NCBI RefSeq assembly: GCF_026151205.1
Contig: NC_087082.1
Span: forward strand, 19,244,494 to 19,308,493
DNA from: Bolinopsis microptera
Taxonomy: Eukaryota > Ctenophora > Tentaculata > Lobata > Bolinopsidae
Length of the DNA stretch: 64,000 nucleotides
Direction: 5' to 3'
The notes beneath the pieces were generated by a model. It had not been told where the DNA came from and did not search any database. It saw only the letters and a program-made list of their open reading frames with translations. Position numbers and translations under genes: made by a program. This document shows, piece by piece, positions 13,001-16,000 of the stretch (its first letter is position 1; each line of letters opens with the position of its first letter).

Positions 13001-16000
13001 TAGTTAAAAATATTTGATAAAAAGTAACACTCACATCATCAGGCGAAACAAGTACACTTTCATGTAGCACACACTGCATAGTTGCAGGTCCTTCGTATCA
13101 TATCAACCCTCCTCACAACTATCCTTGCTTACCTTGCGGACAATATCAACCCTTATCACAACTATCCTTGCTTACCTTGCGGACAATAGCAACCCTCCTC
13201 ACAACTATCCTTGCTTACCTTGCGGACAATAGCAACCCTCCTCACAACTATCCTTGCTTACCTTGCGGACAATAGCAACCCTCCTCACAACTATCCTTGC
13301 TTACCTTGCGGACAATAGCAACCCTCCTCACAACTATCCTTGCTTACCTTGCGGACAATAGCAACCCTCCTCACAACTATCCTTGCTTACCTTGCGGACA
13401 ATATCAACCCTCTTCACAACTATCCTTGCTTACCTTGCGGACAATAGCAACCCTCCTCACAACTATCCTTGCTTACCTTGCGGACAATAGCAACCCTCCT
13501 CACAACTATCCTTGCTTACCTTGCGGACAATAGCAACCCTCTTCACAACTATCCTTGCTTACCTTGCGGACAATAGCAACCCTCCTCACAACTATCCTTG
13601 CTTACCTTGCGGACAATAGCAACCCTCTTCACAACTATCCTTGCTTACCTTGCGGACAATAGCAACCCTCTTCACAACTATCCTTGCTTACCTTGCGGAC
13701 AATAGCAACCCTCCTCACAACTATCCTTGCTTACCTTGCGGACAATATCAACCCTCCTCACAACTATCCTTGCTTACCTTGCGGACAATAGCAACCCTCC
13801 TCACAACTATCCTTGCTTACCTTGCGGACAATAGCAACCCTCTTCACAACTATCCTTGCTTACCTTGCGGACAATAGCAACCCTCTTCACAACTATCCTT
13901 GCTTACCTTGCGGACAATAGCAACCCTCCTCACAACTATCCTTGCTTACCTTGCGGACAATAGCAACCCTCCTCACAACTATCCTTGCTTACCTTGCGGA
14001 CAATAGCAACCCTCCTCACAACTATCCTTGCTTACCTTGCGGACAATAGCAACCCTCCTCACAACTATCCTTGCTTACCTTGCGGACAATAGTAACCCTC
14101 CTCACAACTATCCTTGCTTACCTTGCGGACAATAGCAACCCTCCTCACAACTATCCTTGCTTACCTTGCGGACAATAGCAACCCTCCTCACAACTATCCT
14201 TGCTTACCTTGCGGACAATAGCAACCCTCCTCACAACTATCCTTGCTTACCTTGCGGACAATAGCAACCCTCCTCACAACTATCCTTGCTTACCTTGCGG
14301 ACAATAGCAACCCTCCTCACAACTATCCTTGCTTACCTTGCGGACAATAGTAACCCTCCTCACAACTATCCTTGCTTACCTTGCGGACAATAGCAACCCT
14401 CTTCACAACTATCCTCGCTTACCTTGCGGACAATAGCAACCCTCCTCACAACTATCCTTGCTTACCTTGCGGACAATAGCAACCCTCTTCACAACTATCC
14501 TTGCTTACCTTGCGGACAATAGCAACCCTCCTCACAACTATCCTTGCTTACCTTGCGGACAATAGCAACCCTCCTCACAACTATCCTTGCTTACCTTGCG
14601 GACAATAGCAACCCTCCTCACAACTATTCTTGCTTACCTTGCGGACAATAGCAACCCTCCTCACAACTATTCTTGCTTACCTTGCGGACAATAGCAACCC
14701 TCCTCACAACTATCCTTGCTTACCTTGCGGACAATAGCAACCCTCTTCACAACTATCCTTGCAACCAACAGGGAAAGGATCGGAACAGGTAGCGAAACAT
14801 CCTTTACCACAACTATCATATACCATAGAATCAGGGCACTCTTTCGGACAGAAATTACTGGATCTCCAACCTGGAGTGGTTATATTAATGCTTTTCATAC
14901 AAAGTTACAACAAAGTCTTCATGTTATGTATCCTGGGTTTGGACAGGATATTAGTTTCAGTAAAAATGTATTGATCACGTGACAGTCCTCTAAGGGTTAT
15001 TTCAAATCTGGTTATTTTGAATTTAATAATAATAACTGCTTCTCTATTAGCTGGTTCTAGCTAAAAGATCGTAATTCAGTAATCTGTCTCACCTACTACA
15101 GGGTTTCCTGAATCAGCACATTGCTTAGCATAGATAGCAGCGTTCGAACATACATTAACATCACTGGAAGGATCGATGCAGGTATCAAACATACAATTCT
15201 GAGAGAAGTTATGATGTTATTTGGACACTGTAATATACGCTATCAAAGGATTATTATTATCTTTGAAGACCTTGAAGAACCATTTTTTTAGCGCAATGTT
15301 ACAAATCATTGTGAGCGTGTGAAATTCCTCTTCAGAAAAGTGCATGCAGAGCACCTCCCTCGGCTTGGCATTCTTCAGTGCGCGCAATGTTGCTTCAGTG
15401 TGCACAATGTTGCTTCAGTGTGTACAATGTTGCTTCAGTGTGCACAATGTTGCTTCAGTGTGCACAATGTTGCTTCAGTGTGCACAATGTTGCTTCAGTG
15501 TGCACAATGTTGCTTCAGTGTGCACAATGTTGCTCCAGTGTGCACAATGTTGCTTCAGTGTGCACAATGTTGCTTCAGTGCGCGCAATAATACTTTCAGC
15601 GCTGCTATATAACAAATAATTTGAGTTCAGGAATAGCATGTACTAGTACCCCCAAAGGGGAGCCGTGAGTAATTCGTTGTTTGTTTGCTGTGCTGTCTTT
15701 ATTAGCTGTGTGTTGCTTGGCTGTGTGATGTCAGGTACAGGTATAAAAACACCATCTACCGGAAATAGACGTGGCTCTGTGACAGGAACAGGGCAAAACA
15801 CTAAAAAAGAGCATCATAATGTTGATAGATGCCCATGTAGCCATTCGAATGCTGGAAGCTTCAAGCTAGTATGCACAGGATGCAAACAGAACTGGCATGC
15901 AGATTGTCTGGGACTAAAGGGTATCACGAAGCCGTCAATATTGAAGCTGGAACAGTGGTTATGTCCATTTTGCTACGTAGCACCTGTACCAACCAACTCA

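Follow-up and report, generated by a model that had tools for sequence, protein, structure and literature searches.

An intron built of copies of the preceding exon's end and its splice donor was found in the window, the 64,000-nucleotide stretch of Bolinopsis microptera DNA analyzed here, within a gene whose next exon retains only its 3' tail. The best account of this arrangement, with a probability of about 0.78, is that a donor-spanning tandem duplication grew inside an old intron and that a deletion joined the resulting array to the interior of exon 11.

The array and the truncated exon 11

The array lies in a gene for a large secreted-type protein of the VWD-C8-TIL-VWC family. Its architecture is VWD-C8-TIL, a missing VWC, and an Ig-like domain, followed by a second VWD-C8-TIL-VWC-Ig-like module; VWD, C8, and TIL occur in order in modules 1 and 2, all above Pfam's cut-offs, while the second VWC and both Ig-like regions score below them. 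The features concerned are as follows.

6145..45232, minus strand: gene span, 27 mapped exons in the numbering of this analysis (exon mapping, Pfam)
14724..14870, minus strand: exon 10, length 147 nt, phase 1-1, closing the TIL domain (Pfam)
part of 14724..14870, minus strand: final 34 nt of exon 10, serving as copy 1 of the unit's exonic portion
14718..14723, minus strand: first predicted splice donor, GTAAGC, the sole one of 38 that escapes an in-frame TAG
13124..14757, minus strand: 38 full 43-bp units, the exonic part of unit 1 being exon 10 itself
13100..13123, minus strand: partial 39th unit, ending in GGGTTGATAT
13091..13099, minus strand: junction sequence GATACGAAG, with a very weak predicted acceptor AG at 13092-13091, the only one giving an open frame
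13035..13090, minus strand: exon 11 remnant, 56 nt, which together with the last base of exon 10 reads GPATMQCVLHESVLVSPDD, the start of the Ig-like domain
12241..12336, minus strand: exon 12, intact, with ordinary splice sites

Exon 10 (14870-14724, minus strand) ends in TGTCCGCAAG and is followed by the donor array, for which Tandem Repeats Finder gave a period of 43 and 38.7 copies at 13100-14762, with 98% matches and 0% indels. On the gene strand, GTAAGC occurs 38 times from 14723 down to 13132, and all 37 spacings are exactly 43. The first-pass annotation, made from the letters of the window, had described an intron of about 38 copies of the exon end plus its donor that would confront the spliceosome with dozens of equal competing donors, and both statements are borne out. 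Each unit joins 34 nt of exon 10 to a 9-nt intron start, the latter being GTAAGCAAG in 37 of 38 units; the array is thus a head-to-tail series of 38 full copies of the exon and intron sequence of a single junction. Full copies identical to the consensus number 22 of 38, pairwise identity averages 98.0%, and differences fall at six of the 43 positions in a patchy pattern. The codons for DSCEEGCYCPQ, earlier said to be carried by each unit, are kept in 31 of 38 when read in the exon's frame; the other seven are changed at unit base 1 (two units), base 20 (two), or base 21 (three, where the change creates a stop). When 601 bp of the array was compared with the whole assembly (264.65 Mb, 232 contigs), four overlapping matches were returned, all inside the window array, a count that does not prove the array rare because the search tool passes over very common words.

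A protein query combining exon 10 with the exon 11 remnant retrieved relatives from the assembly on C9 (two copies, C9A and C9B, about 25 kb apart) and C1 (three, C1a to C1c), with weaker ones on C7 and C3. With exon proteins as queries, six collinear gene copies were mapped, each with 25 to 27 of the 27 exons. Exon 11 is essentially full length in all five paralogues and encodes the TIL tail, a VWC domain, and the start of the Ig-like domain, with the exceptions that it lies in two frames in C9B, is split by a further intron in C1c, and is one residue short (110 of 111) in C1b. Of the 111 codons, the window gene retains just the final 19, which are identical to C9A in protein and are followed by the same donor, GTGAGT. 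At the array's far end, 92 codons and the old acceptor are absent; as the codons amount to 276 nt, a multiple of three, their loss keeps the frame. C9A has 412 nt between its donor and the position matching the window acceptor, 136 of them intronic and 276 coding, and both stretches are gone from the window gene. The segment first taken as exon 11 is only the 3' tail of an exon far longer in the paralogues, and the 92 codons missing next to the array, including the VWC domain, did not enter that first interpretation.

The VWC of C9A exon 11 is recognized as PF00093 at 34.6 bits (cut-off 27.6), and in module 1 of the window gene no VWC follows TIL, so that this module departs from the VWD-C8-TIL-VWC order of the family. 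The TIL of the window gene, at 27.9 bits, is still above its cut-off of 24.5, compared with 43.9 bits in a query carrying the TIL region of C9A. The first strand of the Ig-like domain in paralogue exon 11 matches PF13927 at 20.8 bits, under the cut-off of 30.

Two oddities of exon 11 were seen among the paralogues. In C9B (C9:14616001-14636000, locus about 10242), its two frames meet at one point, as a frameshift or an assembly error would produce. In C1c (C1:14558001-14588000, locus about 15558-15687), a short extra intron splits the exon at CAG/GT; C9A, C9B, C1a, and C1b are uninterrupted there, and this may be a true intron gain.

Other features of the window and genome were recorded. Between exons 8 and 9, where the intron of the C9 copies is short, the window gene has a large one; at 15647-25708 it holds long open frames, for example 19092-22646 (1184 codons), that by eye resemble endonuclease/reverse transcriptase. 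An 8-mer, ACCTGGTT (AACCAGGT on the gene strand), forms arrays at 42952-43300 and at 45256-45910, the second of which stops just upstream of the first mapped exon. Past the gene's last mapped exon, a 64-bp repeat occupies 3636-4916 (19.9 copies, 97% matches). Elsewhere in the genome, PF10613, a glutamate receptor ligand-binding family, has 32 matches, of which 10 lie in uninterrupted frames of at least 900 codons.

Predicted splicing and the condition of the gene

The first donor is of phase 1. Among the five AGs scanned as acceptors at 13111-13056, two are in frame with a stop, two are out of frame, and one, ACGAAG at 13091, is in frame and open; acceptors further up are barred by an in-frame TGA just upstream. 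Skipping from exon 10 to exon 12 was rejected, as it would break the frame (phase 1 to phase 0), as were the four remaining acceptors. Use of any donor except the first leads, as had been proposed, to an in-frame TAG, the frame ending in ..CYCPQGKQG. The earlier placement of the acceptor AG inside a degenerate last unit is not upheld: the 39th copy is partial and stops near 13100, which leaves the AG at 13092-13091 outside the repeat units, in sequence of the junction or of former exon 11. The predicted donor thus lies within a repeat unit and the only open-frame acceptor outside the array units. If the intron is still spliced, donor 1 would be joined in frame to the weak AAG at 13091, giving a protein without VWC in its first module.

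Splice sites were scored with a simple matrix of consensus frequencies. The array donor scored above 87 of 88 donors compared and the acceptor at 13091 below all 88 acceptors, its pyrimidine fraction equal to the lowest among them, a ranking that is somewhat biased because the 88 comparison introns were partly picked by score. The AG inside the unit scored -0.89, better than the -5.71 of the final acceptor. Because CAAG/GTAAGC could act as acceptor and donor at once, removal of a whole unit would regenerate the same donor.

These properties bear on the strongest alternative, failure of splicing, in which the array is retained or late donors are used and translation stops at the first TAG, so that the gene is recently broken or makes a short protein ending in ..CYCPQGKQG. 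An acceptor weaker than any compared, together with 37 surplus donors that each bring a TAG into frame at once, makes this a substantial possibility, at clearly less than even odds. What speaks against it is the condition of the downstream exons. Over the 798 codons of exons 12-27, comparison with C9A gave dS 0.208, dN 0.039, and a low dN/dS of 0.19 (0.28 for exons 1-9). Changes on the window branch numbered 40 nonsynonymous to 54 synonymous; the C9A branch had 28 to 48 (Fisher p 0.53), and the neutral expectation by sites is about 3.9:1. These branch counts assume C9A as the sister copy, an assumption made uncertain by dS, which places C9A closer to the window copy over exons 12-27 but closer to C9B over exons 1-9. 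No stops were seen in window exons 12-27, a weak count since the window frames had been chosen as open ones. Exons 12-27 are open and constrained and bear no sign of decay after the array, as a gene broken very recently would also appear.

Assembly error is an unlikely explanation. In this case the array would be real or inflated, and the end of the old intron and the VWC codons would have been lost during long-read assembly; long arrays are indeed hard for assemblers and the missing sequence lies exactly at the array's flank, but the units differ in their patchy manner at six positions, both array flanks align to the C9 paralogues, and no orphan or further close copy of the missing part of exon 11 is present among 25 matches in the assembly.

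Age of the intron and a proposed order of events

The paralogous introns were compared with that of the window. All five paralogues have an intron after the homologous codon and in phase 1, with lengths of 136 (C9A), 1401 (C9B), 125 (C1a), 1049 (C1b), and 150 nt (C1c) and donors GTTAGC, GTTAGC, GTACTT, GTAATA, and GTAGCT, respectively. They differ in sequence from the window intron, and the 43-bp unit occurs in none of them. No tandem array was found in the homologous intron of C9A, C9B, or C1c, or near the homologous donor of C1a; the homologous intron of C1b is itself full of other repeats, starting with copies of CACCAG/GTAATAT. Because the intron occurs at the same position and in the same phase in five of five paralogues, intron birth does not hold, and the intron looks older than the array, as judged from sequence comparison among paralogues of one assembly. 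The first-pass annotation had offered "born, or rebuilt" as the history of the intron, with the exon 10 boundary as the amplified sequence; rebuilding is supported and birth is not. It had itself named an orthologous intron of ordinary sequence, with the array elsewhere, as evidence against its reading, and the C9 copies, the two closest to the window gene, present the same kind of evidence in paralogues rather than orthologues. Birth from an AGGT-containing exon segment, tandemly duplicated in uninterrupted coding sequence so that donor and acceptor come from two copies, would fit the AG/GT of every unit (CAAG/GTAAGC) but is very improbable, as an intron of matching position and phase is present in all five paralogues, the sole open-frame acceptor is no copy of the unit, and the protein would be changed by a loss of 92 codons.

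An old intron together with a missing part of the exon points instead to expansion of a donor-spanning tandem duplication within the existing intron. A short duplication may have straddled the exon 10/intron 10 junction by chance, taking in 34 nt of exon and 9 nt of an old, conserved intron. The C9 introns start with GTTAGCATC, the window unit ends with GTAAGCAAG, and the exon just ahead of the unit reads TTGCAAGGATAG; a duplication joined at the shared GCA would yield the 43-bp unit. The start of the C9 introns would favor a microhomology of about GCA rather than the GCAAGG first suggested. The array could then have grown to about 38 copies through ordinary slippage or unequal exchange, selection on the protein keeping the outermost exon copy while the inner copies were free to behave as intron. 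At the far end a deletion, whose place in the sequence of events is tentative, would have joined the array to the interior of exon 11 and removed the 92 codons for the TIL tail and VWC domain together with the ancestral acceptor and what was left of the intron. As the C9A exon has AGTTGA near the place corresponding to the end of the partial last unit (GGGTTGATAT), GTTGA may be the deletion's join; the exact breakpoint is uncertain because about half of the 10 bases between this possible join and the exon remnant differ from C9A.

Tentatively, the donor array might be regarded as a domain-deleting device: VWC would have been removed in frame by joining to the interior of the next exon, and the gene would now live with an intron in which 38 strong donors of identical sequence face a single, very weak acceptor, the AG/GT repeats also permitting stepwise removal of 43 nt with the same donor always regenerated. 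This idea is put at less than even odds.

Similar arrays in the genome and known systems

Arrays crossing splice junctions were also seen by eye in sister genes. Donor junctions are involved at exon 13 (E13) of C1a (31 bp x 10.8), C1a E3, C1b E10, and C1b E16, and acceptor junctions at C1b E8 (80-bp unit, detected by Tandem Repeats Finder as period 160 x 14, about 27 copies) and C1b E14. The C1a E13 array (C1:11985001-12015000, locus 14086-14421) repeats the exon end TGTCAGACTATGTCT plus GTAAGTAATGTTATAT, and its ten extra copies of the donor junction are followed by an ordinary intron end. The unit at C1b E8 (C1:560001-590000, locus 11525-13734) has the acceptor CAACAG and the first codons of exon 8, a mirror-image case with many surplus acceptors. 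Both resemble the window array in crossing a splice junction with the outer copy retained as exon; unlike in the window gene, C1a E14, which follows its array, and C1b E8, whose acceptor is repeated, are still found over their length.

Arrays make up 4-45% of the six gene spans. Junction 16-mers (8 exon and 8 intron bases, one mismatch allowed) recurred in their own intron at two donor and two acceptor junctions out of 89 each, one of the recurring ones (C1b E3/E4) being doubtful, compared with 1 of 89 exon-only 16-mers and 209 of 1560 random intronic ones. The 89 introns comprise 88 predicted automatically and the window intron defined by hand, out of a ceiling of 156 exon pairs (6 copies x 26); pairs were dropped where aligned exon ends were missing, ragged, or without a scoring pair. 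Some automatic junctions are visibly doubtful (e.g., E15/E16). Of the arrays recognized by eye, those at C1b E8, E10, and E16 and at C1a E3 lie outside this set or under its threshold. Since random intronic sequence recurred more often than junctions did, an amplification mechanism seeded specifically at donors is neither supported nor needed, and a general tendency to form tandem repeats suffices. Junction copies should indeed be rarer if repeats can begin at any position and most of those reaching exons are removed by coding selection.

The window intron offers a natural test of spliceosome choice among dozens of identical donors, only the first of which gives a readable message, and it ties the expansion of a junction-spanning repeat to the disappearance of a domain from the protein. 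The sister genes supply several smaller junction-spanning arrays, of donors and acceptors, for comparison. The window intron also cautions against taking an intron for new because it consists of exon copies; paralogues must be checked.

Tandem duplication is an established source of introns (PMC3443670; PMC4974935), and intron sliding and tandem duplication are described in Drosophila (PMC2891723). According to PMC4974935 and PMC3443670, the duplicated unit in the case of Hellsten et al. (2011) contains AG/GT, as does that of the window intron; the defining point of that case, the absence of a prior intron, fails here. Of the precedents found, the nearest are fission-yeast introns consisting of 24-nt repeats (PMC3629103) and an intron of potato. 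The yeast introns are presented as gains, across four and two copies (PMC4974935). As described there, they resemble the window intron in that exon sequence with a possible splice site is repeated head to tail; they represent intron gain, whereas the window has an old intron, about 38 copies, a unit spanning exon and donor, and a lost domain. In the account given of the potato RdRp intron, which arose from duplication across an intron-exon boundary (Ma et al., 2016; PMC4974935), a tandem duplication over an existing boundary likewise provides splice signals, but on the acceptor side, with two copies and a new additional intron, whereas in the window the donor side is involved, the copies are many, and no intron is added. 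The window case is a striking variant of a known process, set apart by its copy number, the age of its intron, and the coupled loss of a protein domain.
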